A stretch of DNA of 64,000 nt from Peptococcaceae bacterium BRH_c8a. GTDB lineage: Bacteria > Bacillota > Desulfotomaculia > Desulfotomaculales > Desulfallaceae. Under the pieces are notes generated by a model, which saw only the letters and a list, made by a program, of their open reading frames with translations, was not told the origin of the DNA and did not search any database. The position numbers and the translations under genes were made by a program. The DNA is taken from assembly GCA_000961575.1 (NCBI GenBank), contig LADP01000013.1, forward strand, positions 1 to 64,000. Direction: 5' to 3'. Shown one piece after another: positions 2,777-58,110 of this stretch. Numbering within the stretch: the first letter of the stretch is position 1; each line of letters starts with the position of its first letter.

Positions 2777-2838
2777 CAGACAAGGGGACAGGGACTTGTC
2801 TGCCGTGTCTAACAGACAAGTCCCTGTCCCCTTGTCTG
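2777..2838. repeat. CAGACAAG palindromic element (two-arm, TT type)
   Basis: Each 26-bp arm is itself an inverted repeat: CAGACAAG, then a 10-base core GGGACAGGGA (or its complement), then CTTGTCTG. Two arms face each other around the loop CCGTGTCTAA, so the DNA can fold either as one 26-bp-stem hairpin or as two small hairpins. TT type means the left arm has GACTTG and the right arm the matching CAAGTC. The right edge joins a 192-bp segment that recurs at 12804, next to another copy whose loop is exactly inverted. Confidence 0.97.
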
Positions 2839-3030
2839 GTTTCCTGCTTGGGTTGATCGTTGTAATTACCTATGCTAATTTAAATATTCTATGGGCTGAA
2901 CCCCATTCCCGCCGTCTAATCACTTGATTGGTAACCAAACATGAACTACCTCGCGAGATGAACGCCTTTGTAAATTGGTTCGAAACAAACTTATTGGACG
3001 CAATAACACAGGCTTTATGGTTCCCACTTA
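2839..3030 (+). repeat. Direct repeat copy 1, Fic-like gene scrap
   Basis: This 192-bp segment recurs at 12804-12997 with about 95% identity by eye. In one plus-strand frame it reads HELPREMNAFVNWF and then LLDAITQALWFPLITI, which resembles the stretch before the HPFxDGNGR active site of Fic-family AMP-transferases (family knowledge). The active site itself is absent, so it is a dead fragment. In both places it starts right at a palindromic element. The Fic assignment is tentative; the duplication is certain. Confidence 0.6.
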
Positions 3031-3158
3031 TCACTATCTTTGTTTTCTTGACCACGGGCATAAGAACCAAAAAGTATAGCTTTTTCAACCCGAATTTTTT
3101 TTGCTTTTAGGGCATTAATATATTCTTTTATTGTTACCTCAACTTGTTTTTTAGCCAT
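3015..3158 (-). pseudogene. Nucleotidyltransferase (MNT-like), truncated after GSYARG...DSD
   Basis: The minus-strand ATG at 3158-3156 follows a GGGGGT ribosome site and opens 47 codons: a Lys-rich helix and then ILFGSYARGQENKDSD, the start of the minimal nucleotidyltransferase fold (GSxxRG then DxD). After DSD the reading enters the Fic-like repeat and stops at once, so the second Asp and the rest are lost. MNT proteins usually pair with HEPN proteins in toxin-antitoxin modules, and a broken HEPN gene lies at 20-22 kb. This is a clean truncation caused by the neighbouring repeat segment. Confidence 0.7.
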
Positions 3159-3384
3159 TCAATGACCCCCTTTGTTGCTGCCAGTAATTCTCCCGTAGAT
3201 TCGATCAATCACTTCAACCACATAAGTGTGCTCAGTGCACCCCTTTGGACAATTCCACCATGATTGAGAGAAGGCTGATTTCGTCAAGGAACTATACTGC
3301 ACGGCCAGCTACACAATTAAATACCATTATTCATGGACTAAGTGCAACGAGGACGTTTGCAGGTAAGGGTATAAAACCTCCTTC

Positions 3385-3417
3385 AATAGAATATGGCTAT
3401 TATAGCTATATTCTATT
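3385..3417. promoter_or_regulatory. 33-bp near-perfect palindrome upstream of toxin-antitoxin genes
   Basis: Two 16-bp arms (AATAGAATATGGCTAT and its complement with one mismatch) flank a single T. A TATAAT sequence overlaps its right end at 3417-3422, and the antitoxin-like gene starts at 3460. Its position and symmetry suggest the operator through which the antitoxin represses its own operon. Confidence 0.6.
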
Positions 3418-3459
3418 ATAATGGGGGTAAGGTCATTGAGAAGAAGGAGTGAAAAACTT

Positions 3460-3915
3460 ATGCCTAACGTACCTATACACGAGGCAAAAAATAAATTGAC
3501 CGCATTAAGACGGGAAGCTATTACTGGAAAAGAATTTATTTTGGCGAATGCCAAAATGAAAGATGACAAACCTGTTTCTCTAATATCAACGGTACTACTT
3601 GACGAACTATGTGAAACTAAAAGTTTTTCATTTGAATGGATAGACGAACCCACGGATGAAAGCGAATATTATTCTTTATATAACCCGGAAATCGGTGTTT
3701 ACGGTGTAGGCACAACTAGAAGGGAGTCTATAGTAGACTTCATTGACAACATTGTTGAATACGCTGAAGTCTATTGGAATGACTTACCGTTTTATTTAAG
3801 TCCGTCAGGTGGTCGCCGTGAACATTATTGGTACTTAAGGCGCATCATTCGCTGCCAAGGTGACAGTGATAAAATTTACCGTGTGCTGGATTTGGATAAG
3901 GTGCTGGGAGATTAA
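3460..3915 (+). CDS. Antitoxin-like protein, Phd-like N-terminus and HicB-like C-terminus
   Basis: 151 aa from the ATG at 3460, which follows GAAGGAG; an ATG at 3421 is possible but overlaps the likely promoter. The first 55 residues (PIHEAKNKLTALRREAITGKE, then LANAKMKDDKPVSLIS) resemble the DNA-binding Phd/YefM antitoxins. The later part (EIGVYGVGTTRRESIVDFID then EYAEVYWND) resembles the HicB fold that caps HicA. The stop overlaps the next gene's ATG by one base, so the two are translationally coupled. The role as antitoxin is inferred from this pairing and the palindrome upstream. Confidence 0.6.
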   Translation: MPNVPIHEAKNKLTALRREAITGKEFILANAKMKDDKPVSLISTVLLDELCETKSFSFEWIDEPTDESEYYSLYNPEIGVYGVGTTRRESIVDFIDNIVEYAEVYWNDLPFYLSPSGGRREHYWYLRRIIRCQGDSDKIYRVLDLDKVLGD

Positions 3916-4151
3916 TGGGATATACGTTTACCTGGGATGATATTGAGCAAATTTGCCGCAAGTTGGGGATGAAGAGACAGGGCAAGACTTCTGTTTGGAA
4001 AGGCATTGGGCCAGACGGAATTAAGCGTACTTGTATAATTCATGCAAAACATAAGGGAAATGTGGGAAGCGGGCTGATACAGAAGATTACTACAAAGGAA
4101 TTGAAATTTGCTTCAGTGGAGGAAATGTACTATTTTTTGAAACGGAAGTAG
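3915..4151 (+). CDS. HicA-like toxin
   Basis: 78 aa, the size of HicA mRNA-interferase toxins. The order of a helix with LGMKRQGK, a strand pair, then CIIHAKHKGNVGSGL matches the double-stranded-RNA-binding-like HicA fold, where a His after the second strand is catalytic; here His37 or His40 could serve. It is coupled to the upstream antitoxin-like gene by a 1-bp overlap, and a strong terminator follows at 4187. Family fit is moderate, so toxicity is inferred. Confidence 0.6.
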   Translation: MGYTFTWDDIEQICRKLGMKRQGKTSVWKGIGPDGIKRTCIIHAKHKGNVGSGLIQKITTKELKFASVEEMYYFLKRK

Positions 4152-4186
4152 GCTTACTAAAGTACCGGGCTGATGCCCGGAAAATC

Positions 4187-4217
4187 TGGAAGACCTGCCC
4201 GGTCTTCCAAATTCTTT
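4187..4217 (+). terminator. Terminator of the toxin-antitoxin operon
   Basis: A perfect 9-bp stem (TGGAAGACC with GGTCTTCCA) and 5-base loop end in AATTCTTTT, 36 bp after the HicA-like stop. A second small hairpin, CCGGGC with GCCCGG, precedes it at 4165-4180. Confidence 0.8.
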
Positions 4218-4279
4218 TAGATGAGGCCTGTCCCCCGCCAATGTGATGCGTTAACGTACTAAAGTGATGCGGGTATAGG

Positions 4280-4317
4280 AATCCCCTGCCGGTACAGACT
4301 AGGCAGGGGATTATTTT
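4280..4317 (+). terminator. Orphan intrinsic terminator
   Basis: AATCCCCTGCC at 4280-4290 pairs with GGCAGGGGATT at 4302-4312, followed by ATTTT. No intact gene ends just before it; it may have belonged to a gene now lost. Confidence 0.7.
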
Positions 4318-4323
4318 GGACAT

Positions 4324-4488
4324 ATGTTGTTATCGGTTATCGGTTCACCACAAGGCTCCGAATTGCGAAAAGAACTGCAAATACCCGAGGGCTACAAGCC
4401 CTACTATGCGGCTGTGCTGGGATATAAAAAAGCTGCGACTGTCAAAGCACCGGCTAGGAAAACCAACCTCATTACATATATCAGGTAG
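4324..4488 (+). pseudogene. C-terminal fragment of a nitroreductase-family gene
   Basis: 54 codons ending at the TAG at 4486 read ELRKELQIPEGYKPYYAAVLGYKK, then a Lys/Arg-rich stretch and ITYIR. This matches the end of the nitroreductase-family fold (IPEGYxPYxAxxLGY). The FMN-binding N-terminal two thirds are missing, so this is a remnant. It is not similar to the nitroreductase at 40399. Confidence 0.6.
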
Positions 4489-4526
4489 TATTCAGCTTTT
4501 TATTAAGGCAGATTGGAGAGCTAATA

Positions 4527-5129
4527 ATGGGAAACACTGATAAGTTTGAAATGATAGCTAATATATATGACACTTCTGAAAGAATCCAAATTGCAAAGGT
4601 ATCATCAGATGCCATTCGTGAATATTTAGTTGACGCCAAAAGTAAGAATGCTATTGATTTTGGGTGTGGAACTGGTCTTGTGGGAATGAACTTGTTAAAT
4701 GATTTTAATTCTATGCTTTTTCTAGATACATCGCAAAATATGATTAATCAAATGAAACAAAAAATTGCTGACTTTAATGTTCGGAATGTAGATACATTAT
4801 GCTTTGATTTCGAAAAGGAAGGTCGGTCGGATTTACATGCTGACTATATTTTTATGGCTCAGGTACTACTCCATATTAATGATGTTGAGTTAGTTTTATC
4901 AAAATTATATGATGTTCTAAATGTGGGAGGGCATTTATTAATCGTAGATTTTAATAAAAATGAGAAAATAGTTTCAGATATGGTTCATAACGGATTTGAT
5001 CAAGTAAAGCTAACCGATATTATGGCTAAAATAGGGTACAGGGATATTCAATCCAAAACTTTTTATTCAGGAAGTAAAATATTCATGGGACAAGATGCAT
5101 CTATGTTTATTCTTGATTCACAAAAATAA
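4527..5129 (+). CDS. Class I SAM-dependent methyltransferase
   Basis: 200 aa. The SAM-binding glycine loop IDFGCGTGLVG is at about 43-53, an acidic residue after strand 2 (LFLDTS) near 68, and the post-II motif DYIFMAQVLLHIND near 110-123. This is the UbiE/Methyltransf_11 type, which methylates a small molecule. The ATG follows GGAGAG. Flanked by gene remnants on both sides; A+T-rich. Substrate unknown. Confidence 0.8.
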   Translation: MGNTDKFEMIANIYDTSERIQIAKVSSDAIREYLVDAKSKNAIDFGCGTGLVGMNLLNDFNSMLFLDTSQNMINQMKQKIADFNVRNVDTLCFDFEKEGRSDLHADYIFMAQVLLHINDVELVLSKLYDVLNVGGHLLIVDFNKNEKIVSDMVHNGFDQVKLTDIMAKIGYRDIQSKTFYSGSKIFMGQDASMFILDSQK

Positions 5130-5209
5130 ACTTCAAGACGGAAATTTTTAATCCCGTATCTAGACTTGAGATTATTACGATAAAAAAGAAAATTAGCAAA
5201 TCATAATAG

Positions 5210-5842
5210 ATGCACTTTAAAAGCAGTTCTCGTCTACTGTTTGTCGGGCTTCAGGGAAGTTATGGTCGGGGCGAAGCAACAGACAGCAGCGACATAGATG
5301 CGGTTGTCATACTGGATCAGGCGACTCCGGGAGATCTGAAAGCATACGGCGCTATGCTGGACACGCTTCCGAACCGGGAGAAAGTTTGTGGATTTATCTC
5401 CGGCCGGCAGGAGTTACTAAATTGGGAACGCTCCGATCTGTTCCAGTTCTATCATGATACCGCCCCGGTTTTCAATAGTCTTGATTTTCTGCTGCCACTT
5501 ATCGGTAAGGAGGATATTCGCCGTGCCATCCGGATCGGGGCCTGCAACATCTACCATATGTGTGGCCACAACACGGTGCATGAGAAAGACGCGGAGATAT
5601 TGAAAACCCTTTATAAATCAGCCGCCTTTACCGTACAGGCAGTCTATTACGACCAAACGGGAACCTACATAAAGCAAAAGGCCGAGCTTATCCCCGTGCT
5701 TTAACCACAGGAACGGGAGATTTTGCAGACCGGCATTACGCTCAGGCAACAGCCAAACATGGTGCAGACTGAGTTTGAGCGGCTCTCTGAACTGCTGTTC
5801 AATTGGGCAGCGGGGTTGATTATCGAATATAAGACTGTGTGA
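5210..5842 (+). pseudogene. Nucleotidyltransferase-domain protein with an in-frame TAA
   Basis: Residues 13-33 read GLQGSYGRGEATDSSDIDAV, the nucleotidyltransferase signature GSxxRGxxxxxSDID with both metal-binding Asp residues. The frame is open for 164 codons and then meets TAA at 5702-5704. The same frame continues for 45 more codons (PQEREILQTGITL up to AAGLIIEYKTV) to TGA at 5840-5842. That tail looks like genuine protein of the same family, so one nonsense change splits the gene. The codon before the first ATG is a TAG and no ribosome site is visible, so the start may be damaged too. Confidence 0.7.
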
Positions 5843-5880
5843 AATTAAGCAAAAACATGAATTTGAACGGATGATTCACT

Positions 5881-5925
5881 ATGAAATTTAAGAACCCTAT
5901 GCTGGTTATTAATGGCTTTTACTAA
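5881..5925 (+). pseudogene. Scrap of a VOC-family gene start
   Basis: Fourteen codons, MKFKNPMLVINGFY then stop, resemble the first strand of VOC (glyoxalase/dioxygenase fold) proteins. Too short to be functional. Confidence 0.35.
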
Positions 5926-6020
5926 AGCATTTATTTTGTCGCCTTTCGTAAATCCCGCTTATTCCAAACTGTCTCCCTTTTTATAACAATTTATTCAAAT
6001 TAAAAAACCTAATATAGCCC

Positions 6021-6072
6021 TTGACATTCTATAAAATAGGTAATATATTACGTATAAAAGGTAATGTATTAC
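6021..6072 (+). promoter_or_regulatory. Promoter with two MarR-type operators
   Basis: TTGACA at 6021-6026 and TATATT at 6044-6049 are 17 bp apart. A perfect 12-bp palindrome GTAATATATTAC (6040-6051) covers the -10 box, and a near copy GTAATGTATTAC lies at 6061-6072, 21 bp further, i.e. on the same DNA face. The MarR-family gene starts at 6131, so autorepression is the natural reading. Confidence 0.85.
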
Positions 6073-6130
6073 GTAATTCGCGGGGACAGAGTATCAAACA
6101 ACAGAGCTTTAGGCAGAAGGTGGGTATGAT

Positions 6131-6574
6131 ATGGATATCTTAGAACAACAAAGATTTATTTTCGGCAGTTTGTTTCTAATTCCTAATAAGCTACAGGTTA
6201 TTGTGGATCGTTCTCTGGCTAAACATGATTTAACGGCAAAACAGTGGTTGCTTACAGCCATGATTGAGAAAATGAATCAACTATCACCTACCTTAATGGA
6301 GGTAACGGAGGCTATGGGAAGTTCTCACCAGAATGTAAAACAGATCGCCTTAAAACTACAGGAGAAAGATTTTCTGGTCTTGGAAAAAGACGCCGAAGAT
6401 CGTAGGGTTACCCGGTTAAAGTTAACAGAGAAATCAGCGGCCTTTTGGGATAAACAGCAAGAGGATGGTATGCGGCTGTTTGCAGATTTATTCGAGGATT
6501 TTACCCCGCAGGAAATAGATTCACTATATAAAGGATTAATGAAGATATATCAAAAGTTGCATGAGACGAGTTAA
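6131..6574 (+). CDS. MarR-family transcriptional regulator
   Basis: 147 aa, the usual MarR length. A winged helix spans about 45-105: LMEVTEAMGSSHQNVKQIA is the helix-turn-helix and EKDAEDRRVTRLKLTEKS the wing with its DxR pair. It should bind the two GTAAT-ATTAC palindromes over its own promoter as a dimer and release them on ligand binding. The start follows GAAGGTGG. The DUF6544 gene is 66 bp downstream on the same strand and is probably the regulated partner. Confidence 0.9.
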   Translation: MDILEQQRFIFGSLFLIPNKLQVIVDRSLAKHDLTAKQWLLTAMIEKMNQLSPTLMEVTEAMGSSHQNVKQIALKLQEKDFLVLEKDAEDRRVTRLKLTEKSAAFWDKQQEDGMRLFADLFEDFTPQEIDSLYKGLMKIYQKLHETS

Positions 6575-6640
6575 GTGAATTGTTATGTGTGCAGTCTGAG
6601 GAGCACTTTTTATATATAAATAATAGAAAGGAAAACAATC

Positions 6641-7483
6641 ATGGAAAAAAAATATATCATAGCTGTATTGTTGTTAATTATAGTTTTTGCGTCCATAACG
6701 CTGTTCATTAAAGCCCAAGGCCTGAAAAAGGCTTACCAAGGGGATGTTCAGCAAGCACTGGAACAGGTTCGCCCTGTGGATAACGAAATACTTACGGTAG
6801 AGGATATAAAGCACCTGCCCATGCCTGTGCAAAAGTATCTTACCTATACCGGTGTCATTGGGAAGGAAAAAGTTCAAAACATGCGCGTGGTCACTGAAGG
6901 AAAGTTTAGACCTGACCCGCAAAAAGGCCTGGCCCCTATGGTTTCCGAACAATACAATTTCTTTGCCGAACCGGCCCGTTTTTATTACATCAAGTTGAAA
7001 ATGTCCGGTGTCCCTGTGGTGGGACTGCACGCTTACAAAGATGCCAAGGCGTCTATGCGTATTAAGTTGGCATCACTTTTCAAAGTGGCCGATGCTCAAG
7101 GTGAGATTATGAATAAAGCCGAAACAGTAACAGTATTTAATGATATGTGTTTATTAGCCCCGGCTAGCCTAATTGATAAAAGAATAAAATGGGAAACAGT
7201 TGATCCGTTGACGGTCAAAGCCATTTTCACCAATAATGGTATTGCGATTACGGCCATCTTGTATTTCAACAAAAAGGGCGAACTGATTAACTTTACTTCC
7301 GATGACCGTTACCTTACGGCTACGGGGGAAGAATTTCGCCAGGCCAGGTGGTCAACTCCGGTTAAGGATTACAAGGATTTTAATGGTGTGAAGCTGGCAA
7401 GTTATGGAGAAGCCGTTTGGAATTTGCCCGAGGGTGATTATTGTTACGGCCAGATAAATATTAAGGAAGTTGACTTCAATTAA
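6641..7483 (+). CDS. DUF6544-family membrane-anchored protein
   Basis: 280 aa. One membrane helix at about 5-24 (IIAVLLLIIVFASITLF), then a soluble domain with the family's LPMPVQKYLTYTGV segment near 60-74, ending with QINIKEVDFN. I recognise this as the DUF6544 (previously DUF6920) type; no enzyme activity is established. It probably sits in the membrane with the domain outside. AGAAAGGAAAAC precedes the ATG. It likely shares the MarR promoter at 6021. A palindromic element begins 13 bp after its stop. Confidence 0.75.
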   Translation: MEKKYIIAVLLLIIVFASITLFIKAQGLKKAYQGDVQQALEQVRPVDNEILTVEDIKHLPMPVQKYLTYTGVIGKEKVQNMRVVTEGKFRPDPQKGLAPMVSEQYNFFAEPARFYYIKLKMSGVPVVGLHAYKDAKASMRIKLASLFKVADAQGEIMNKAETVTVFNDMCLLAPASLIDKRIKWETVDPLTVKAIFTNNGIAITAILYFNKKGELINFTSDDRYLTATGEEFRQARWSTPVKDYKDFNGVKLASYGEAVWNLPEGDYCYGQINIKEVDFN

Positions 7484-7496
7484 CAGACAAGGGTAA

Positions 7497-7556
7497 CAGA
7501 CAAGGGGACAGGGACTTGTCTGCTTTTTAACAGACAAGTCCCTGTCCCCTTGTCTG
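7497..7556. repeat. CAGACAAG palindromic element (TT type)
   Basis: Two matched 26-bp arms around the loop CTTTTTAA, in the 101-bp gap between the convergent DUF6544 and DUF421 genes. An extra partial unit CAGACAAGGG precedes it at 7484-7493, directly after the stop codon. Confidence 0.96.
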
Positions 7557-7584
7557 CTTGAGTTTTATTGTAACCCAGACGCAG

Positions 7585-8310
7585 TTAAGTGAGCCGGAGT
7601 TTTTTTAGAAAAGCATCATAACTAAACCCTTGATACGGCACTAGGTAAAGCCCTTCAACCTTTGACCATTCGGCAAAAAAAACATCCTGCGCCTTGTCTA
7701 ATCCGCGTGCCGATAACTGTTTTAAAAGCCACTCCTCATTCAACCCACAATCATAAAGATTCTCCTTCAACACTTTTCCATCGCTAATCAGGGTATACGG
7801 CAGATGCAATTCTTCTGGCGGCAGCAGTAAATCTTTTTTTTTCGGAGTATCATAATTGCTTTTTTTTAGTACGGACAAACCTCCATTTGTTTCTAAAATG
7901 GCGTAATCAACTTCCCTGACCGAGAAAACGCTTTTTTGCCGCAGCAGGGTTTGCAGCTGATCAATGTTAATCTTATTTTTATTTAACTGGTACCGATCAA
8001 TAACCCCCTGCCGGATAATTATGGATGGTTTGCCCTGCATAAAGCCCCTGGTTTTGAGTATCCGCTGGTTTACCGATTCCATAATAAAAAGCAGCGAGCC
8101 CCATACTACCAGGGCAAACACAATTTGCAGCGCACCCGTTTCAGTCTGGTAAATCGCGTTTCCAACCAATTCCCCCAGCACCAGGGCGGACAAGAAGTCA
8201 AACGGCGTTATCTGGCTTATTTGGGTTTTACCTAGGATTTTTATAATAATGAATAATGTAAAAAATCCTGCTACCAGTTCAGTGCCGATACGTAAATATT
8301 CCATAATCAA
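7585..8310 (-). CDS. DUF421 (YetF-type) membrane protein
   Basis: 241 aa. Three hydrophobic segments in the first 80 residues, including a FDFLSALVLGELVGNAI stretch, then the DUF421 cytoplasmic domain with LETNGGLSVLKK near 145-156 and PYTLISDGKVLKENL near 177. Family members sit in the membrane and appear linked to spores or the cell envelope; their biochemical job is not known. It stands alone, unlike the two DUF421 genes at 35-37 kb, and differs clearly from both. No strong ribosome site is seen before this ATG. Confidence 0.85.
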   Translation of the reverse strand: MIMEYLRIGTELVAGFFTLFIIIKILGKTQISQITPFDFLSALVLGELVGNAIYQTETGALQIVFALVVWGSLLFIMESVNQRILKTRGFMQGKPSIIIRQGVIDRYQLNKNKINIDQLQTLLRQKSVFSVREVDYAILETNGGLSVLKKSNYDTPKKKDLLLPPEELHLPYTLISDGKVLKENLYDCGLNEEWLLKQLSARGLDKAQDVFFAEWSKVEGLYLVPYQGFSYDAFLKKLRLT

Positions 8311-8464
8311 TTACCCCCAGGATTACTCTATTGTTAAATTGAAACTGTTTTTTTATGTGTTTTTTTAAAAAATAAGGGGGAGTGCCAGGTTACTGCCCCT
8401 GATTCTTATTCTTCTTTAATAGAATACTAGCGTAGGTATCCTTAGCGGTTTTGACGAATTGCGG

Positions 8465-8492
8465 TTGTCTATATTAATATTAAACTTATAAT
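8465..8492 (+). promoter_or_regulatory. Promoter of the 4Fe-4S protein gene
   Basis: TTGTCT at 8465-8470 and a perfect TATAAT at 8487-8492 are 16 bp apart, 20 bp upstream of the TTG start at 8513. That leaves room for a GGGGG ribosome site. Confidence 0.55.
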
Positions 8493-8512
8493 AATTTTCG
8501 GGGGTAATACGT

Positions 8513-9328
8513 TTGTGTGAATTCTGCACCAAACATGGTGAAGGTAAAAAATGGTATGAGGTAATGGAGAATTATTCTACAGCACTATTAGCTGAAACCC
8601 GTCGCCAGGCTTATATCAACCGGTTTGTTCCATCTATACATAATGCCAGTTTAAAACTAGACAAATTAGAGACTGTTAAAAGAAAGTATCCTCTGGCTTA
8701 TCGTTTCATTAGCAAAATGGGGACGCAGCAGATGAAAAAAAATCATTTCGGACAAGTAGTACCCATTGAAGACGCCGAGAAGATTATAGATTTAGTTCAG
8801 TCCATTACGAGGATAGCTTGTATATGCAGAAAGATTAAAACCGGGGAAAGTAACCACAGGTATTGTTTACTACTGGGCATTGACCCCACTGGCATAATAA
8901 AAGAATGGCCGGAATTGCAATATAATTTGGAGACACTTAATAAGATAGAAGCTAAAAAATTGTTGAGGGAATTCGACAGGGAGGGTTTGGTTCATTCAAT
9001 CTGGACCTTTAAAACCCCTTTTATCGGTGCCATATGTAATTGTGACCACGATTGTCTGGCTTTTAGGCTTCAGGTAAGTTCGGGCTTATTAAATGTCATG
9101 TTTAAGGCTGAATACATAGCGGAAATTGACCCGGTTAAGTGTGTGGGGTGTCGCGAATGCCAGAAGCTGTGTCAATTTGGAGCCATACAGTATTCTGTAA
9201 CCAACCACAAGTGTTACATTAACCCCCTGCAATGTTACGGGTGCGGAGTCTGTAGGGTTGGCTGCAAAAAAGACGCCGTAAATTTATTGCTCAAAGAAGA
9301 ACTGCCTAATTTTAAACATCTATGGTAA
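8513..9328 (+). CDS. Ferredoxin-type 4Fe-4S binding protein
   Basis: 271 aa from a TTG start, placed by the GGGGG ribosome site and by the family's N-terminus MCEFCTKHGEGKKWY. The C-terminal 70 residues hold two 4Fe-4S motifs, CVGCRECQKLC and CYGCGVCRVGC, each with a further Cys before or after. Other Cys residues lie at CICRK and ICNCDHDC in the middle. It is likely a cytoplasmic electron carrier or a subunit of an anaerobic redox enzyme, but no partner gene is adjacent. Such stand-alone proteins are common in anaerobic Firmicutes. Confidence 0.85.
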   Translation: MCEFCTKHGEGKKWYEVMENYSTALLAETRRQAYINRFVPSIHNASLKLDKLETVKRKYPLAYRFISKMGTQQMKKNHFGQVVPIEDAEKIIDLVQSITRIACICRKIKTGESNHRYCLLLGIDPTGIIKEWPELQYNLETLNKIEAKKLLREFDREGLVHSIWTFKTPFIGAICNCDHDCLAFRLQVSSGLLNVMFKAEYIAEIDPVKCVGCRECQKLCQFGAIQYSVTNHKCYINPLQCYGCGVCRVGCKKDAVNLLLKEELPNFKHLW

Positions 9329-9408
9329 ATAATTTTACAGCTGTTTGAGGCAATTAACTGTTTAGTAGTAATGTTCATACTAAAAGCTGGTGAACCGCCG
9401 GCCAGAAG

Positions 9409-9470
9409 CAGACAAGGGGACAGGGACTTGTCTGCCGTGTCTAACAGACAAGTCCCTGTCCCCTTGTCTG
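9409..9470. repeat. CAGACAAG palindromic element (TT type)
   Basis: Matched arms around the loop CCGTGTCTAA, the same loop and orientation as the copy at 2777. It ends 37 bp before the start codon of the next gene, so it would lie in that gene's 5' leader or promoter. Confidence 0.96.
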
Positions 9471-9507
9471 CTTATGGTGTTACCCGGCAAATGAAAGGGG
9501 TTTATTG

Positions 9508-10887
9508 ATGTCTATTGAAGAACATTTTGCTGAAAGTAAAAAAGCTCATCCTTCTACCGGAAAAGCCGGCAAGATGCCCATCCCTGTAAACCCCGTTATT
9601 TACGCGTCATTACGGGCTATATACGCCGGCGGTCCGGGCTGTCGTTGGAAGTCGGACTCATACGGGAGACCCTATTATCCCTACCAGGCGAGAGACGGCC
9701 AGATTAATATATACTTTGATCCTCCCTACCCCCCGCATCAAGGCTATCTCCCCTGGTCAAGCAGGGACATGGAAAAAGCCGCAGAACTGCAAAAACTCTA
9801 CCTTACCCCGCGCTGGCAAAACATATACACGGGTAGTATCAGAGAAGCGGTTCGTAACCTGTCCGTTGAGACGGCTGATGTTTTCCTCATTTTGATGGCC
9901 GAGATATCCAGGCTTCCCGATCCGCGGCGCGATACAGCCTTTATAAGTATGGAGGATATAGCTGCATACCGGTCGGTAAGAATCAGGCATGGTAGCGCAA
10001 CTAATCTTCATAGGGAATTCAAGGAAGAAATCCTGAGGTTAGCTGATTTACGGCTTACGATGACATGGCGAGACTACAAAAGGGGCGGCACTTTGTTCTT
10101 CGGCAGGGAACGGCCGGACAGACTGCTGGATGTTGTTGACGTTGAGTACAGGCGGGACGATACCCAATGGGCTTCTGTTAATATCCGCTGTGGTCAGGCG
10201 CTGGCCGGGTTTTTAAACCCGGACGGTTTGAGATGGGTTGGCTATTACAGCAGGGCCTTACTTCAGCTAAACCCCTACCAGGAAGCAGTTGCCAAAAAAA
10301 TGGGCACCTACTGGATAATGATTGGTGTAACGGCGGGGAAAAGAGGCGAAAGGCCACGCGCAACCCCATATACTATCCTTGATTTTTGCGGTGAGAAAAT
10401 CAATTGGCGCAACCCGGGGCAAACGGTGGACTCCTTTATCAAGGCTCACGAACGGCTCAGAGAAATTGGAATTCTGGAAGAAACACCGGTTTTGGAACCG
10501 CCCGACAGAAATAAAGGTTATTTTAAAAAATGGTTGCAGACCCCTTTATCAGTCAAGCTTTCAGATAACCTCTGGATGATAAAAGTTAAACCCGACAAAA
10601 AGGCGTTAACTGCATCAGATAATACGCGACAACGTAATCGGACACCTTTGCATTGCAGATTACCCGGAAATGCGACGGAACTGCAAAACGACCCCCACCT
10701 AATCCGGCAGTTCAGGTCGGTTTTTGGAATTCACCAGGAAGAATTAGCCCACACAGTAGGTGTTGCCCGGCAGACCCTTTCCAATTACGAACGCTGCCGG
10801 CGACAACTTCCATACGATGTGGCCGTACAAATCCTCTCAGTCTGGAAGCGCAAATCCAGACAATATGATAACCAACCCATTAAGTGA
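9508..10887 (+). CDS. Large HTH protein, possibly replication- or plasmid-related
   Basis: 459 aa from the ATG at 9508 (preceded by GAAAGGGG; a TTG just before it is also open). The last 60 residues form an XRE-type helix-turn-helix: FRSVFGIHQEELAHTVGVAR then QTLSNYERCRR. The N-terminal third is Pro/Tyr-rich (GRPYYPYQAR, PPYPPHQGYLPWS); the middle has Trp/Arg-rich segments (LRLTMTWRDYKRGGTLFFG) reminiscent of winged-helix plasmid initiators, which is only an impression. The gene stands alone, with a palindrome before it and a terminator after it. The HTH is sure; the function is unknown. Confidence 0.6.
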   Translation: MSIEEHFAESKKAHPSTGKAGKMPIPVNPVIYASLRAIYAGGPGCRWKSDSYGRPYYPYQARDGQINIYFDPPYPPHQGYLPWSSRDMEKAAELQKLYLTPRWQNIYTGSIREAVRNLSVETADVFLILMAEISRLPDPRRDTAFISMEDIAAYRSVRIRHGSATNLHREFKEEILRLADLRLTMTWRDYKRGGTLFFGRERPDRLLDVVDVEYRRDDTQWASVNIRCGQALAGFLNPDGLRWVGYYSRALLQLNPYQEAVAKKMGTYWIMIGVTAGKRGERPRATPYTILDFCGEKINWRNPGQTVDSFIKAHERLREIGILEETPVLEPPDRNKGYFKKWLQTPLSVKLSDNLWMIKVKPDKKALTASDNTRQRNRTPLHCRLPGNATELQNDPHLIRQFRSVFGIHQEELAHTVGVARQTLSNYERCRRQLPYDVAVQILSVWKRKSRQYDNQPIK

Positions 10888-10969
10888 GTTAGACTAACCC
10901 ATCTCGTGATTATTACCCACCCGCACCGTGAGTATGTCATCAGTACAGTTATCAAGAAGCCTTTATTTA

Positions 10970-11000
10970 AGCGCCCCATACAGGGCGCTCATCTTTTATT
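10970..11000 (+). terminator. Intrinsic terminator after the HTH gene
   Basis: AGCGCCC and GGGCGCT form a 7-bp GC-rich stem around CATACA, followed by CATCTTTTATT. It lies 82 bp after the stop at 10887. Confidence 0.8.
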
Positions 11001-11089
11001 AGTATTAATAAGTTCTAGGATTAATTTTTCACATGTTACTCTGGAGCTATCATGTAAAATAGTTAAAAAGCGGTAAGGAGGTTGTCCTA

Positions 11090-12286
11090 GTGTATTACGC
11101 GCCGGTACATATAACCCCCCGGGCCGAGCTGGAAGCCCGCGCGGCAAGGCTCCAGTCATTAATGTCAGACAGTGACCTGGACGGGGCGATAATAGTTCAA
11201 AATGCCGACCTGTTTTACTTTGCCGGTACAGTCCAGCGCGCAAACCTGTTTATCCCTGTTCAGGGAAATCCGGTTTTATTGGTAAAAAAGAACCTGGAAA
11301 GAGCTAAACGTGAATCCACTTTGGAAAAAATTGTTCCACTACCCAGTATGAAAGAATTACCTTCGGTTTTGGCAACTTATACGGGTCATAAATTAAACCG
11401 GATAGGGTTTGAGCTGGATGTACTGCCGGTAAACCAATTTTTTTATTACCAGCGATTACTTGGCGATACAAAAATAGTGGACGCCAGCCGCTTAATACGC
11501 CAGGTGCGTGCGGTAAAGTCGGAATACGAAATTGGTTTACTTAAAGACGCGGCTGGTCTAAACCAGGCAATGTTCTCCAGTGTTAGGGAATTTTTAAGGG
11601 AAGGAATAACCGAAGTGGAGCTTGCCGGTCAACTGGAAAACGTATACCGCCGTAGGGGGCACCAGTGCCATATCAGGATGCGCGGTTTTAATATGGAAAT
11701 CGTTTACGGGCACCTGATGTCCGGCTGGAACCTGGCTATTCCCACCTTCTTTGACGGGCCAACCGGCGGTAGCGGGCTAAATCCTTCTTTCCCTCAGGGT
11801 GCGGGCATGAAAGCCATCGGCAGGGACGAGCCGGTTATGGTTGATTATGTGGGTGTTTTAAACGGGTATATGGTTGACCAGGCCAGGATATTTTGTATCG
11901 GGCGGTTGCCCGATAAGCTCGTGCGAGCTTATCACGTATCTATTGAAATTCAAGAATTAATCAAAGAAAAGGCTGTAATCGGAGCATCCTGCACCCATCT
12001 TTACGAAATAGCGCTTGAGGTTGCAAGAAAGTACGGGCTGGGTGAACACTTCATGGGATACCCGGAACCGGTGGCGTTCATTGGTCACGGTTTGGGCATT
12101 GAACTGGACGAACTGCCCGTGCTTGCCAGGGGATACGACCTTCCTCTGGAACAAAATATGGTATTTGCGTTGGAGCCCAAGTTTGTTTTTCCGGAAGGAG
12201 CCGTCGGTATCGAGAACACCTACCGGGTAACTGCTAATGGTTTGGAATCGATAACCGAGTTTGACGAAAGTATTGGATATTTATAA
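11090..12286 (+). CDS. M24-family metallopeptidase (Xaa-Pro dipeptidase-like)
   Basis: 398 aa from a GTG start with a perfect AAGGAGG ribosome site 8 bp upstream. The creatinase-like N-domain (1-150) is followed by the pita-bread domain. The five metal ligands are visible: Asp in VMVDYVGV, Asp in MVDQARIF, His in GHGLGIELDE, Glu in FALEPKF and Glu in GIENTYRV. Such enzymes cleave dipeptides with C-terminal proline or related compounds in the cytoplasm. The CGGC-domain gene starts 22 bp downstream with its own ribosome site, so the two form an operon. Confidence 0.9.
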   Translation: MYYAPVHITPRAELEARAARLQSLMSDSDLDGAIIVQNADLFYFAGTVQRANLFIPVQGNPVLLVKKNLERAKRESTLEKIVPLPSMKELPSVLATYTGHKLNRIGFELDVLPVNQFFYYQRLLGDTKIVDASRLIRQVRAVKSEYEIGLLKDAAGLNQAMFSSVREFLREGITEVELAGQLENVYRRRGHQCHIRMRGFNMEIVYGHLMSGWNLAIPTFFDGPTGGSGLNPSFPQGAGMKAIGRDEPVMVDYVGVLNGYMVDQARIFCIGRLPDKLVRAYHVSIEIQELIKEKAVIGASCTHLYEIALEVARKYGLGEHFMGYPEPVAFIGHGLGIELDELPVLARGYDLPLEQNMVFALEPKFVFPEGAVGIENTYRVTANGLESITEFDESIGYL

Positions 12287-12308
12287 ACAATTCTTAGGAG
12301 GAGATTGG

Positions 12309-12740
12309 ATGGCCAGGATAGGAATTCTTACCTGTTCCAACTGTACCGGGGAACTGGATTGCGCTTCGGTGGTCTGCCTTGGTGACCTACGCAAACGGAA
12401 AGGTTTTTTCAGTAATTACCCGCCCGAAGAAAAGTTGGACTTAGTCGGTATAATTAGCTGCACCGGGTGCCCAACCGTTGGCGCGCCGGAAAAAATACTG
12501 CGGCGGGTACGGTCCATCGCGGAGTTTAACGTTAATGTCATACATTTTTCTTATTGTATGACCGCAGTATGCCCTTTCAAGGAAAAGTACGTATCGGTGA
12601 TTCAAAATGCCTACCCGGACATCAAGTTGGTAATGGGTACCCATACTCCCAGGGATCCGGCGGTATTCCGTGAGGAGGTAAGGGGTCTCCTTTGCGCCGG
12701 TCGCCAAAACATGACAGACCTGATAAAGGGGGCTCATTAA
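12309..12740 (+). CDS. CGGC-domain Cys-rich protein
   Basis: 143 aa from the ATG at 12309, chosen because TAGGAGGAGA precedes it; an earlier in-frame ATG at 12261 lies inside the peptidase gene. Cysteines occur as CSNCTGELDC at 8-17, VVCLG, ISCTGCPTVG near 57-66, YCMTAVCPF near 91-99 and LLCAG, a pattern of the CGGC domain, thought to bind metal or an Fe-S cluster. It is cotranscribed with the M24 peptidase. A palindromic element begins 2 bp after the stop. Function unknown. Confidence 0.75.
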   Translation: MARIGILTCSNCTGELDCASVVCLGDLRKRKGFFSNYPPEEKLDLVGIISCTGCPTVGAPEKILRRVRSIAEFNVNVIHFSYCMTAVCPFKEKYVSVIQNAYPDIKLVMGTHTPRDPAVFREEVRGLLCAGRQNMTDLIKGAH

Positions 12741-12741
12741 G

Positions 12742-12803
12742 CAGACAAGGGGACAGGGACTTGTCTGTTAGACACGGCAGACAAGTCCCTGTCCCCTTGT
12801 CTG
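12742..12803. repeat. CAGACAAG palindromic element (TT type, inverted loop)
   Basis: Matched arms around the loop TTAGACACGG, the exact reverse complement of the loop at 2777, although the 192-bp sequence that follows is in the same orientation in both places. It begins 2 bp after the CGGC-protein stop. Confidence 0.97.
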
Positions 12804-12997
12804 GTTTCCTGCTTGGGTTGATCGTTGTAATCACCTATGCTAATTTAAATATGGTCCAAGGGCTGAACCCCATTCCCGCCGTCTAAGCACTTGATTAGTA
12901 ACCAAACATGAACTACCTCGCGAGATGAACGCCTTTGTAAATTGGCTCGAAACAAACTTATTGGACGCAATAACACAGGCTTTATGGTTACCACTTA
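12804..12997 (+). repeat. Direct repeat copy 2, Fic-like gene scrap
   Basis: Second copy of the segment at 2839-3030, again starting directly at a palindromic element. The two diverge sharply after CCACTTA. It is followed by about 80 bp coding for EWFAAADLTLQAKPGV and similar residues in one frame, an unrecognised gene scrap. Confidence 0.85.
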
Positions 12998-13138
12998 GTG
13001 GCCATAAACAATAAGTGTAATTCGCCAGAGTGGTTTGCAGCAGCCGATTTGACGCTACAGGCCAAGCCGGGGGTAGACACAAAAAGCCTTATCAGACACC
13101 GCTAGTCCAGGAAGCGACGGGGGAAATATTCCACTAAT

Positions 13139-14065: not shown

Positions 14066-14504
14066 GAAGGGAGGATGATCAAGATGGCTGACTTTCGTCT
14101 TAAGTTTCCGGAGAGTCTGGGGCTGTTGGGTCTCTTGGGCCTAATCGGGGTTATAGGCAATTTTTTAGATTCGAGTTTACTTAAACCCTGGCTAGCTGCC
14201 TTTGCCGCTTTTTGTATCTTCGGTCTGCGATTCTTCCATGACCGCCGGCTGGGGTTACCGGAAAGATTGGGACTGCTCGGCTTTTTCGGGTTTCTAGGGT
14301 TTTTGGGCTATATTCCCGGGGCGGAATTTCTCAAGTCTTTGTTTGCCTTCTGGAGCTTTGCGTTTTTCTTTGCTTTCTTGGGTCGCCGCCGAAAAAACAT
14401 CCATTGAACAGCTGCCAGAACACCACGCAACAAACACTCCTGAGGTGCATGCAAATGAGATTAAATAAATCCGAGCGCATGATTATTCTAACGATATGGT
14501 TTAT
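14066..14504 (+). repeat. 439-bp duplicated block, copy 1
   Basis: Matches 19178-19616 at about 95% identity with no length difference. It contains the whole DUF3796-like gene, its ribosome site and the first 15 codons of the following gene, and ends sharply after GGTTTAT. The 14066 copy is joined there to an unrelated hydrolase gene. Confidence 0.93.
14084..14407 (+). CDS. Small hydrophobic DUF3796-like protein, copy 1
   Basis: 107 aa from the ATG at 14084 (GGGAGG lies 9 bp upstream; the ATG at 14075 is too close to it). Two Gly/Leu/Phe repeat stretches (LGLLGLLGLIGVIGN at 14-28 and LGLLGFFGFLGFLGYI near 66-81) alternate with membrane-like segments, and it ends in a basic RRRKNIH. It probably lies in the membrane. 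The style resembles DUF3796 proteins. Copy 2 at 19196 differs by only a few residues, so the duplication is recent. Function unknown. Confidence 0.65.
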   Translation: MADFRLKFPESLGLLGLLGLIGVIGNFLDSSLLKPWLAAFAAFCIFGLRFFHDRRLGLPERLGLLGFFGFLGFLGYIPGAEFLKSLFAFWSFAFFFAFLGRRRKNIH

Positions 14505-16619: not shown

Positions 16620-16633
16620 CTCCATTCAACAAT

Positions 16634-16664
16634 AAAAAAACGAAGGTGTTTGCTATACGCCTTC
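16634..16664 (-). terminator. Terminator of the 28-aa peptide unit, copy 1
   Basis: On the minus strand GAAGGCG pairs with CACCTTC (one mismatch), followed by a G and seven T. It overlaps the peptide's stop codon region. The same structure is in copy 2 at 34778. Confidence 0.7.
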
Positions 16665-16739
16665 TGTTTTTTCATTTTCATATTCAATTTTTTCTAAGCC
16701 GATACTTTCAAGAATTTCATTAATTAATTCTTCGGTCAA
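16653..16739 (-). CDS. 28-aa acidic peptide, copy 1 of a repeated transcription unit
   Basis: TTG start at 16739 with AGGAGG 7 bp upstream; 28 codons, TAG stop. The peptide begins MTEELINEILESIGLEKIE and is strongly acidic, with a likely amphipathic helix over its first 20 residues. The identical coding sequence occurs at 34799-34885. A promoter (TTGACA, 18 bp, TAAAAT) lies 34-63 bp upstream and a terminator right after, so it is a complete gene of its own. I do not recognise the peptide; regulator, antitoxin or membrane-active roles are open. Confidence 0.65.
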   Translation of the reverse strand: MTEELINEILESIGLEKIEYENEKTEGV

Positions 16740-16772
16740 ACGAATTCCTCCTTTTTATAGAGCGACTTTAAT

Positions 16773-16802
16773 ATTTTACTATCTAATAATAATAAATGTC
16801 AA
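16773..16802 (-). promoter_or_regulatory. Promoter of the 28-aa peptide unit, copy 1
   Basis: On the minus strand TTGACA (16802-16797) and TAAAAT (16778-16773) are 18 bp apart. The sequence is A+T-rich and nearly identical in copy 2. Confidence 0.75.
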
Positions 16803-16826
16803 TATATGGCATGTCCTTTTTTAAAG

Positions 16827-19177: not shown

Positions 19178-19616
19178 GAAGGGAGGATGATCAAAATGGC
19201 TGACTTTCGTCTTAAGTTTCCAGAGAGTCTGGGGCTGATGGGTCTCTTGGGCCTAATCGGGGTTATAGGCAATATTTTTGATTCGAATTTACTTAAACCC
19301 TGGCTAGCTGCCTTTGCCGCTTTTTGTATCTTCGGTCTGCGATTTTTCCATGACCGCCGGTTGGGGTTACCGGAAAGACTGGGATTGCTCGGCTTTTTCG
19401 GGTTTCTAGGATTTTTGGGCTATATTCCCGGGGCGGAATTTCTCAAGTCTTTGTTTGCCTTCTGGGGCTTTGCGTTTTTCTTTGCTTTCTTGGGTCGCCG
19501 CCGAAAAAGCATCCATTGAACAGCTGCCAGAACACCACGCAACAAACACTCATGAGGTGCATTCAAATGAGATTAAATAAATCCGAGCGAATGATTGTTC
19601 TAACGATATGGTTTAT
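19178..19616 (+). repeat. 439-bp duplicated block, copy 2
   Basis: Partner of 14066-14504. Here the sequence runs on into an intact membrane-protein gene, so this is probably the original location and the 14066 copy the transferred one. Confidence 0.93.
19196..19519 (+). CDS. Small hydrophobic DUF3796-like protein, copy 2
   Basis: 107 aa from the ATG at 19196, nearly identical to the protein at 14084 (differences include LGLMGLLG, NIFDSN, FWGFAF and RRRKSIH). GGGAGG precedes the start by 9 bp. It is followed after 47 bp by a membrane-protein gene in the same direction; such DUF3796-like proteins often sit beside other small membrane proteins and an HTH regulator. Membrane location is inferred from composition; function unknown. 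Confidence 0.65.
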   Translation: MADFRLKFPESLGLMGLLGLIGVIGNIFDSNLLKPWLAAFAAFCIFGLRFFHDRRLGLPERLGLLGFFGFLGFLGYIPGAEFLKSLFAFWGFAFFFAFLGRRRKSIH

Positions 19617-28749: not shown

Positions 28750-28819
28750 CAGACAAGGGGACAGGGACCTGTCTGGCGTTAACCAGACAGGTCCCTGTCC
28801 CCTTGTCTGCCCTTGTCTG
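28750..28819. repeat. CAGACAAG palindromic element (CC type) with an extra unit
   Basis: Core 28750-28809 with GACCTG and CAGGTC, loop GCGTTAAC; an extra CCCTTGTCTG follows. It fills the gap between two convergent genes, 2 bp from the gerC-like stop and 4 bp from the guaA-like stop. Confidence 0.96.
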
Positions 28820-30190: not shown

Positions 30191-30250
30191 CAGACAAGGG
30201 GACAGGGACTTGTCTGGCGTTAACCAGACAAGTCCCTGTCCCCTTGTCTG
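30191..30250. repeat. CAGACAAG palindromic element (TT type)
   Basis: Matched arms, loop GCGTTAAC, between the divergent guaA-like and metallophosphoesterase genes. Confidence 0.96.
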
Positions 30251-30359: not shown

Positions 30360-31202
30360 ATGAAAAAATGGCTTGTGTTTTTCTCTTTGATAGTCATAAC
30401 CCTAAGTTTATCAGCCAAGATTTATTTTGATACAAATGTTTTTAAAGTAAATAAAGTTCAGTTTTACAGTAACAAATTACCAGAGGGATCCGAATTTACA
30501 GTTTTGCAAATCAGTGACTTGCATAATAAAGTTTTTGGAGATAACAATGAGCAATTGGTTAACACCGTGGAAAAATTAAATGCCGATATTATTGTTATAA
30601 CAGGTGACCTCGTAGATGAAAGTACCGATAATTTTAAAAATGTTTTTTCCCTCATGGAGAGAATAACGGCCATTAATAATAATGTCTTTTTTGTATCTGG
30701 TAACCATGAGTGGGGAAACGCTTATACCGTGGAGTTTTTAAACGGTCTCCGCGAGCGAAATGTGACAATCTTAAACAACAGAAACATAAAAATCATGGAA
30801 AACAATATAACACTTAATTTAGTTGGGGTTGACGATGTCTCAAGAAATCATGAAAATTCCCCCCAAGCATTCAATAGCGTTTACCAAGACCAATATACCA
30901 TACTGCTTTCTCATTCGCCCGGCATCACGGAAAAATACCATGACCTACGGGCAGACCTGATTTTAAGCGGGCATACTCATGGGGGGCAAGTGAGAATCCC
31001 ATATATCGGTGCATTGGTGGCCCCTAACCAAGGCTTCTTCCCCCAGTTGGATAAAGGAACATACCAAATTGGTCCGAACCAATATCTTTATATTGACAGC
31101 GGCCTTGGTACGAGTATTGCTCCGATACGATTTTTAAATCAAAGTCAGCTAAGTTTAATAAAGATTAAAAACAGACAAGGGGACAGGGACTTGTCTGTTT
31201 AG
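30360..31202 (+). CDS. Membrane-anchored metallophosphoesterase
   Basis: 280 aa from the ATG at 30360; a longer frame from 30147 only reads through the palindromic element. One membrane helix at 4-21, then the calcineurin-like metal motifs DLHNK, GDLVDE, GNHEWG, LSHSPG and GHTHGGQ, a complete two-metal site facing outside. It resembles the YkuE-like phosphodiesterases. The tail NRQGDRDLSV comes from the palindromic element that overlaps the stop. A deleted duplicate lies at 16857. Substrate unknown. Confidence 0.88.
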   Translation: MKKWLVFFSLIVITLSLSAKIYFDTNVFKVNKVQFYSNKLPEGSEFTVLQISDLHNKVFGDNNEQLVNTVEKLNADIIVITGDLVDESTDNFKNVFSLMERITAINNNVFFVSGNHEWGNAYTVEFLNGLRERNVTILNNRNIKIMENNITLNLVGVDDVSRNHENSPQAFNSVYQDQYTILLSHSPGITEKYHDLRADLILSGHTHGGQVRIPYIGALVAPNQGFFPQLDKGTYQIGPNQYLYIDSGLGTSIAPIRFLNQSQLSLIKIKNRQGDRDLSV

Positions 31203-31236
31203 CACAGCAGCAGACAAGTCCCTGTCCCCTTGTCTG
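31172..31236. repeat. CAGACAAG palindromic element (TT type) overlapping a gene end
   Basis: Matched arms, loop TTTAGCACAGCAG. The left arm encodes the last nine residues of the metallophosphoesterase, and the stop TAG lies in the loop. The right arm ends 16 bp before the Imm5-like start. Confidence 0.96.
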
Positions 31237-31815: not shown

Positions 31816-32037
31816 TTGATAACAGGTGAAGGTGTTATTTACAAATATACAAAAGAAGAATTGATAGATGCACTGCGGCCGGTATCTTCAATTATCAGCA
31901 AATGTGAAAAAGCACAGCAAAAATATGCGGAGGGAACCGCTAATCATACCCGCTTCAAGAACATAATAAAAGCAATGTATATTTCAAAATCATTAATAAC
32001 AGAGCAGACAAGGGGACAGGGACTTGTCTGGCGTTAA
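31816..32037 (+). pseudogene. Fragment of an ISKCEK-domain protein
   Basis: One copy of a 50-residue domain (YTKEELIDALRPVSSIISKC then EKAQQKYAEGTANHTRFK and IKAMYISKSLIT), the same as the two domains of the gene at 34273. The sequence just upstream (TTTCAAAATCATTGATAAC) is the end of a preceding domain, so it was cut from a longer tandem gene. A TTG at 31816 could start it. The end (EQTRGQGLVWR) is coded by the palindromic element. Confidence 0.6.
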
Positions 32038-32077
32038 CCAGACAAGTCCCTGTCCCCTTGTCTGCTCCCCTTGTCTG
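32005..32077. repeat. CAGACAAG palindromic element (TT type) with an extra unit
   Basis: Core 32005-32064, loop GCGTTAAC, extra CTCCCCTTGTCTG after it. It overlaps the end of the ISKCEK fragment and stops 4 bp short of the sigma-factor stop codon. Confidence 0.96.
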
Positions 32078-34971: not shown

Positions 34972-35039
34972 CAGACAAGGGGACAGGGACCTGTCTGTTA
35001 GGCACGAGCAGAGCAGACAAGTCCCTGTCCCCTTGTCTG
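34972..35039. repeat. CAGACAAG palindromic element (mixed arms)
   Basis: The left arm is CC type (GACCTG) and the right arm TT type (CAAGTC), so two pairs in the stem are mismatched. Loop TTAGGCACGAGCAGAG. It abuts the promoter side of the peptide unit. Confidence 0.95.
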
Positions 35040-37010: not shown

Positions 37011-37095
37011 CAGACAAGGGGACAGGGACTTGTCTGCTGCTATGAAAGGCAGACAAGTCCCTGTCCCCTTGTCTGGTCCTTGTCTGGTCTGTCTG
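37011..37095. repeat. CAGACAAG palindromic element (TT type) with extra units
   Basis: Core 37011-37075 with matched arms around CTGCTATGAAAGG; two worn units (GTCCTTGTCTG, GTCTGTCTG) extend the right side. It lies between the divergent DUF421 operon and the helicase gene. Confidence 0.95.
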
Positions 37096-41310: not shown

Positions 41311-41428
41311 CAGACAAGGGGGACCAGACAAGGGGGACCAGACAAGGGGACAGGGACTTGTCTGCCTGCAAAGCAGCAGACAAATCCCTGTCCCCTTGTC
41401 TGGTCCCCCTTGTCTGGTCCCTTGTCTG
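41311..41428. repeat. Nested CAGACAAG palindromic element, 118 bp
   Basis: Core 41339-41402 (left GACTTG, right CAAATC, loop CCTGCAAAGCAG). Two CAGACAAGGGGGAC units extend it on the left, and GTCCCCCTTGTCTG plus a shorter unit extend it on the right, so the palindrome has grown symmetrically. It directly touches the stop codon of the gene at 41429. Confidence 0.96.
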
Positions 41429-52479: not shown

Positions 52480-52539
52480 CAGACAAGGGGACAGGGACCT
52501 GTCTGGCGTTAACCAGACAGGTCCCTGTCCCCTTGTCTG
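52480..52539. repeat. CAGACAAG palindromic element (CC type) with T-rich flank
   Basis: Matched arms with GACCTG and CAGGTC, loop GCGTTAAC, 4 bp after the SelO stop and followed by TTTCTTTTTTTT, so here it could also terminate transcription. Confidence 0.96.
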
Positions 52540-57135: not shown

Positions 57136-58068
57136 ATGACCTTAACAAATGAACAAGTTATAGAGCGGGCAAAACAACATGGCCTGATGGTAAAAGAAGA
57201 TTCCCTGCTGAACAATGAATCTGGCCTTGATTTTCAGGTGGTTTTTGCCACAGATCTACAAGGCGAAAGATGGGTTCTGCGTATTCCCAGAAGAGAAGAC
57301 GTGCTTGCTAGAACCCGGCAAGAAAAGAACATCCTCGGTCTTGTGAGTTCCTGGCTACCTGTGCAAGTACCCCAATGGACAATTTTTTCCCAGGAGCTAA
57401 TTGCCTATAAGTTGCTAAAGGGCGTACCTGCTGGAACCATTGACCAAGAAGCAAAGGCCTATGTCTGGGAAATAGATGCTCAAAATGTGCCCGATGTTTA
57501 TCATCAATCACTGGGTGGCGCTATGGCTGCCTTACATTGCATTAACCAGGTTGATGATAAAAAAGCCGGCTTTGCATTGAAAACCCCGGAGACATTAATA
57601 ACTTCAATGCAAGCAAGAATGGATAAAATCAAAGCAACCTACGGAGTTGGAGAGAAACTTTGGACCCGTTGGCAAAAGTGGCTGGCTAATGAATCCCTTT
57701 GGCCGCAAAAAACAGCCCTTATCCACGGGGACCTCCATCCAGGTCATATTTTAATCGATGCTAGTGCTCGCGTCACTGGATTTATTGACTGGACAGAGGC
57801 CCATATTGATGATCCCGCTAATGATTTTGTTGTCCATTTAAACGCCTTTGGAGAGGCCGCGTTGAAGGATTTAATAAACGAGTATCATAAAGCTGGCGGC
57901 TATGTCTGGCCGACTATGTTTGAACATATTGTTGAACTGGCCGCGGCATATCCTGTTGCTATTGCGGAATTTGCTATGGTATCTGGTTTAAAAGAGTATG
58001 AAATCTATGCCAAACAAACACTTGGCAGACAAGGGGACAGACAAGGGGACAGGGACTTGTCTGGTTAA
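57136..58068 (+). CDS. Macrolide 2'-phosphotransferase-like kinase
   Basis: 310 aa from the ATG at 57136 (AAAGGAAGTG upstream). It has the aminoglycoside-phosphotransferase fold: ATP-binding LQGERWVLRIPRREDV near 42-57, catalytic loop ALIHGDLHPGHILID near 194-208 and metal-binding VTGFIDWTEAHIDDPANDF. The last two phrases are close to Mph enzymes that inactivate macrolides by phosphorylation with GTP. Tail residues GRQGDRQGDRDLSG are coded by the palindromic element over the stop. The drug target is inferred. Confidence 0.8.
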   Translation: MTLTNEQVIERAKQHGLMVKEDSLLNNESGLDFQVVFATDLQGERWVLRIPRREDVLARTRQEKNILGLVSSWLPVQVPQWTIFSQELIAYKLLKGVPAGTIDQEAKAYVWEIDAQNVPDVYHQSLGGAMAALHCINQVDDKKAGFALKTPETLITSMQARMDKIKATYGVGEKLWTRWQKWLANESLWPQKTALIHGDLHPGHILIDASARVTGFIDWTEAHIDDPANDFVVHLNAFGEAALKDLINEYHKAGGYVWPTMFEHIVELAAAYPVAIAEFAMVSGLKEYEIYAKQTLGRQGDRQGDRDLSG

Positions 58069-58110
58069 CGCCAGACAAGTCCCTGTCCCCTTGTCTGTCC
58101 CCTTGTCTTT
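58026..58110. repeat. Nested CAGACAAG palindromic element overlapping a gene end
   Basis: Core 58038-58097 with matched arms and loop GTTAACGC; one further CAGACAAGGGGA unit on the left and TCCCCTTGTCT on the right, so it has grown symmetrically. A run of nine T follows, so it can terminate transcription. It codes for the last residues of the kinase. Confidence 0.96.

Follow-up and report, generated by a model that had tools for sequence, protein, structure and literature searches.

Opposite loops in two flank-sharing hairpins of a clustered REPIN-like palindrome family: a tentative case for exchange between hairpin arms

The window analysed here, a stretch of 64,000 nucleotides from the genome of Peptococcaceae bacterium BRH_c8a, contains among its genes several for spore germination, one for a GMP synthase, and one that resembles those for poly(A) polymerase / tRNA nucleotidyltransferase; this gene content points to the chromosome of a spore-forming Firmicute. 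It is also populated by a family of palindromes, each of which is built from two inverted copies of CAGACAAGGGGACAGGGACYTGTCTG that flank a short spacer of 7-24 nt. The window carries 22 complete hairpins of this family, along with several isolated arms (some are listed in Table 1). The elements are mostly intergenic, with 25 of 28 centred outside of ORFs of at least 100 amino acids, and the hairpins of the family fold as single-stranded DNA with z-scores between -11 and -13. Their loops differ freely from one hairpin to the next, and the arms enclose no conserved core site.

In the stretches examined of this 4.17-Mb spore-former genome, which is assembled into 48 contigs, there are 39 (about 40) non-redundant short hairpins. 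Twenty-five hairpins lie between 2.8 and 96.3 kb of the 137-kb contig C36, which makes up about 3% of the genome. The family is thus extremely clustered in one region (positions 2777-62827 of the window, and on C36 as far as 96314), and it is nearly absent from sister genomes; any match at all was found in three of 79 other genomes, at four, one and one places, respectively. A literature search on the arm sequence returned unrelated matches only, and a scan of genome contigs with a DUF6544 protein gave nothing but distant loci from Bacteroidota and Chlorobiota. Loss of SbcCD was considered as an explanation for the survival of the palindromes, but was rejected since SbcD, the hairpin nuclease subunit, is present.

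Table 1. Coordinates of hairpins, flanks and longer elements; positions refer to the window unless a locus is named.
Feature	Position	Strand	Description
Palindrome A	2777..2838	.	Arms 2777-2802/2813-2838, 26 nt; loop CCGTGTCTAA at 2803-2812
Right flank of A	2839..3030	+	Aligns with the right flank of B; ends at 3030
Palindrome C	9409..9470	.	Arms as in A; loop CCGTGTCTAA; shares neither flank with A or B
Palindrome B	12742..12803	.	Arms 12742-12767/12778-12803, same as A; loop TTAGACACGG at 12768-12777
Right flank of B	12804..12997	+	Common to A
Palindrome	28750..28809	.	Loop GCGTTAAC
Palindrome	30191..30250	.	Loop GCGTTAAC
Palindrome	31172..31236	.	Homologous congener position carries one arm only
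Palindrome	32005..32064	.	Loop GCGTTAAC; breaks into partly repeated sequence
Palindrome	34972..35039	.	Left flank repeated at 16625-16825, adjoining a degenerate half-element (from about 16826)
Palindrome	37011..37075	.	Ortholog in congener G001 (L072); one-side flank 95% over 1.4 kb
Palindrome	52480..52539	.	Loop GCGTTAAC
Palindrome	58038..58097	.	Loop GTTAACGC, opposite to GCGTTAAC
Longer elements	L057:10051-10197, L057:18709-18910, L058:2026-2229, L054:4552-4910, L054:8320-8579, L055:9423-9604		Same arms around a longer variable sequence

The hairpins A and B possess the same arms, which consist of CAGACAAGGGGACAGGGACTTGTCTG and its complement and pair perfectly. Folded as single-stranded DNA, A reaches -34.4 kcal/mol (z -11.2) and B -35.2 kcal/mol (z -11.8). 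It had been predicted that their loops are exact reverse complements of each other, and this is the case (CCGTGTCTAA versus TTAGACACGG, both 10 nt); when letters were shuffled within loops, none of 2000 trials yielded an exact reverse-complement loop pair of at least 10 nt. The sole further copy of CCGTGTCTAA in the genome, apart from the hairpins in Table 1, is located on contig C19, outside any hairpin. The claim that A and B are followed by the same segment in the same orientation was likewise borne out, with 95.4% identity over 194 columns. This match begins in both copies with the first base past the arm, and the junction between the arm and GTTTCCTGCTTGG is base-for-base identical in A and B. 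The left flanks of the two hairpins do not align to each other.

Beyond position 3030, the sequence matches a congener locus (98.9%) that differs from the one matched by the flank, and the first copy is joined there to unrelated sequence. The stretch 12818-13102 is homologous (83%) to a congener locus that lacks the hairpin. The right flank is not unique, as portions of it recur in the genome and in the congener without an adjoining hairpin of this palindrome family. The segments 2839-3030 and 12804-13102 are members of a dispersed repeat that is also found on C45, C21 and C35 and in G001, and contain a short possible reading frame.

The original prediction read the opposite loops of A and B as a flip in one copy after the pair had formed. 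The opposite orientation of the loop relative to a shared flank stands; a flip in place is not established by it, since the left flanks are unrelated and only the right flank is common to both hairpins. The second loop pair that had been adduced exists as described, with GCGTTAAC in four hairpins and GTTAACGC in a fifth (Table 1), but these hairpins occupy unrelated sites, where opposite loops are expected for any dispersed palindrome. Random orientation upon insertion yields the same pattern, and opposite loops at non-homologous sites were therefore rejected as evidence for inversion. The multi-copy loop types CCGTGTCTAA, GCGTTAAC, GTGTTAAC and GTCAAGAC mostly occur in both orientations in about equal numbers.

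The architecture of the family recalls that of REPINs, which are REP doublets that form hairpins and are mobilised by RAYT/TnpA-REP proteins (PMC3116915). Shared with these elements are the two inverted conserved arms around a short variable spacer, the intergenic dispersal, the occurrence of half-elements, and the presence in the same genome of sister palindrome families (GGTGCCAGGTGTTGCAAGTTG.. and GGGGTCAGGCC..) at the ends of RAYT-type genes: two RAYT-like Y1_Tnp genes terminate in palindromes of this sort, GGTGCCAGG.. and GGGGTCAGG... A RAYT-like gene with the exact arm studied here was not found in this genome; the order includes one in a different family (G019, L104) whose ends, GGGGACAGGTACCTTGTCC, are close to the present arm. 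In contrast to REPINs, the stem is long and perfect, and the elements are extremely clustered on one contig. Described REP families carry GTAG and CGTC tags (PMC3733652); the palindrome arm contains neither a GTAG nor a CGTC tag. The family is hence best called REPIN-like, and we infer its direct mobilisation by a RAYT protein.

Inversion of the spacer between the arms of an inverted repeat is a known process. In yeast, template switching between such arms is reported to homogenise them and invert spacers (PMC8604942), and template switching is also reported to invert hairpin loops in rRNA genes, bacterial ones included (PMC8794818). A and B resemble these cases in their perfect arms, in the exactly reverse-complemented spacer, and in signs of arm homogenisation; the published cases, however, keep both flanks, while A and B share only one, so that the same event is not proven for them. 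Small inversions between repeats of 11-24 bp are widespread in plastids according to Kim and Lee (2005), as cited in PMC12928735. As summarised there, loops of 5-50 bp between inverted repeats of 11-24 bp occur in opposite orientations, as they do here, but that comparison concerns orthologous sites, whereas A and B are paralogous sites on one bacterial chromosome.

Hairpins that share a flank form three sets, and the loops are opposite in only one of these, the 2777/12742 pair. For the hairpin at 37011, the counterpart in G001 is the only complete ortholog that a congener yielded; the two agree in loop orientation, with one substitution. On the other side of the 37011 hairpin, the sequence is unrelated to that of G001, where an IS200-type Y1_Tnp gene sits. 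In the remaining set (C21:271281, C21:271915 and the start of C38), a hairpin-bounded unit of 634 bp, composed of a 60-bp hairpin and 574 bp, is repeated with 100% identity, and all loops have the same orientation. Unequal exchange between two hairpins would yield such an arrangement, which points to recombination between hairpins in this genome. The array, in which the identical 634-bp unit is present at least twice, lies at L059:9281-10516 and L067:1-700, and the assembly breaks there.

At the inspected window hairpins with one homologous flank, homology ends at the hairpin or within about 25 nt of it and does not resume beyond. The left flank of the palindrome at 34972 is also found in the congener, where it lacks the element. 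Twelve homology breakpoints lie near hairpins, as compared with 6.7 expected for random intergenic positions (p=0.03). The excess is modest once intergenic positions are used for the comparison because hairpins and breakpoints both lie between genes, and the notion of the hairpins as strict rearrangement breakpoints was dropped as a main claim in view of this small excess.

We tentatively ascribe the reversed loop to an exchange between the identical arms of one hairpin of the pair and a neighbouring hairpin with the same loop, a reading to which we assign a probability of roughly 0.46. The near-identical arms across the family would serve as short homologies. The flank 2839-3030 would have been duplicated along with an adjoining hairpin, or at the least with its right arm, and in one of the copies a crossover, or a template switch during repair synthesis, may then have taken place inside the right arm; the partner would have been a nearby hairpin whose loop was the same but, seen from that flank, pointed the other way. 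One event of this kind would both reverse the loop and give the flank a different left neighbour. RecA-type pairing or polymerase template switching might have served as the enzymatic machinery, which we infer just as we do the exchange itself and the order of its steps. This reading accords with the original prediction in that the arms are an obvious source of homology.

Several observations argue for exchange. The junction between common and unrelated sequence in A and B lies inside the hairpin or at its edge, which a flip alone does not produce. Neighbours of the kind invoked exist, as illustrated by hairpin C, which has the same loop and is located 3.3-6.6 kb from A and B. Furthermore, adjacent hairpins share a loop family more often than expected (nine pairs versus 3.5 by chance, p=0.002), with opposite orientations in five of these pairs and the same orientation in four, and the C21/C38 array provides a hairpin-bounded tandem duplication. 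Homology also stops at or near the window hairpins inspected with one homologous flank, as described above. Against exchange weighs the modest enrichment of breakpoints near hairpins. The donor called for by this reading, which would combine the loop in the required orientation with the left flank seen at 2777 or 12742, was not found, nor was a remnant of the partner's flank beside 2777, 9409 or 12742. The argument from a single event is one of parsimony rather than of direct evidence.

Nearly as likely as exchange is an inversion of the spacer in place. The hairpin and its right flank would have been duplicated, one loop would later have been inverted between its arms, and the left flank would have changed separately; inter-strand template switching by a polymerase, cruciform processing and arm-to-arm recombination are the routes that jointly make up this possibility. 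It has the merit of being a published process that requires no partner with the same loop, and the arms bear signs of homogenisation: 25 arm variants are found in both arms of a hairpin as opposed to eight in one arm only, and the symmetry of the arms extends on average 3.55 nt into the locus-specific flanking bases, compared with 0.33 nt by chance. Both properties are expected if template switching copies the arms from each other. Whole-element inheritance, however, accounts for part of this variant sharing and flank symmetry, and variants such as T20C are common to many hairpins and may have been inherited rather than homogenised at each site. Inversion in place moreover calls for two events, the change of the left flank and the flip, where exchange needs one, and the loop has kept its orientation in the two other flank-sharing sets (37011/G001 and C21/C38).

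It is unlikely that the flank already existed in two copies and that a RAYT-type transposase placed the palindrome next to each of them, in opposite directions. A dispersed palindrome can enter a site either way, and the loop families do occur in both orientations; yet A and B show the very same arm junction, base for base, no hairpin adjoins the homologous flank of the congener, and the sequence to the left of the insertion is not common to A and B. Far less probable still is a phase-variable switch in which a site-specific recombinase turns the loop around; a recombinase was one of the mechanisms named in the original prediction. Opposite orientations between inverted repeats do resemble an invertible element, but no recombinase or integrase was found among the 30 window proteins scanned, which include the products of most genes between A and B, a 10-nt spacer is too short to hold a promoter, and the freely varying loops leave no conserved core site. 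A spacer of 10 nt is also below the size of a typical invertible segment. We consider an assembly artefact, with one of the two loops placed the wrong way round, equally improbable. The genome is indeed fragmented and broken at a hairpin array, but a hairpin of 62 bp is shorter than ordinary reads, the left anchors differ between the two sites, and both orientations are also seen in many other loop pairs.

A and B are best explained as a further case in which processes already known have acted on palindromes, here those of a REPIN-like family, and not as a new DNA switch or system. They represent a bacterial case in which the orientation of a loop can record exchange between dispersed palindromes, and the clustered field, in which a single contig holds about 25 hairpins and sister genomes hold almost none, would offer a good natural test of whether in-place flips or flank swaps predominate in short perfect palindromes. 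That exchange in this field is ongoing, with loops that keep flipping and flanks that keep being swapped between neighbouring hairpins such that orientation and gene neighbourhood vary among the cells of one culture, strikes us as quite improbable.

The family also has longer relatives, in which the same 26-nt arms surround about 95-310 bp of variable sequence, several of them with a subterminal AAGCAAGTTYATGG-like motif; these longer elements are possibly the parent of the short hairpins. At 58027-58108 and 41311-41428 of the window, and at L055:4880-4985, palindromes are lengthened outward by symmetric units of the CAGACAAGGGGA type, as though both arms were growing together. A 439-bp duplication (14066-14504 and 19178-19616; 96%) carries a DUF3796-like gene.
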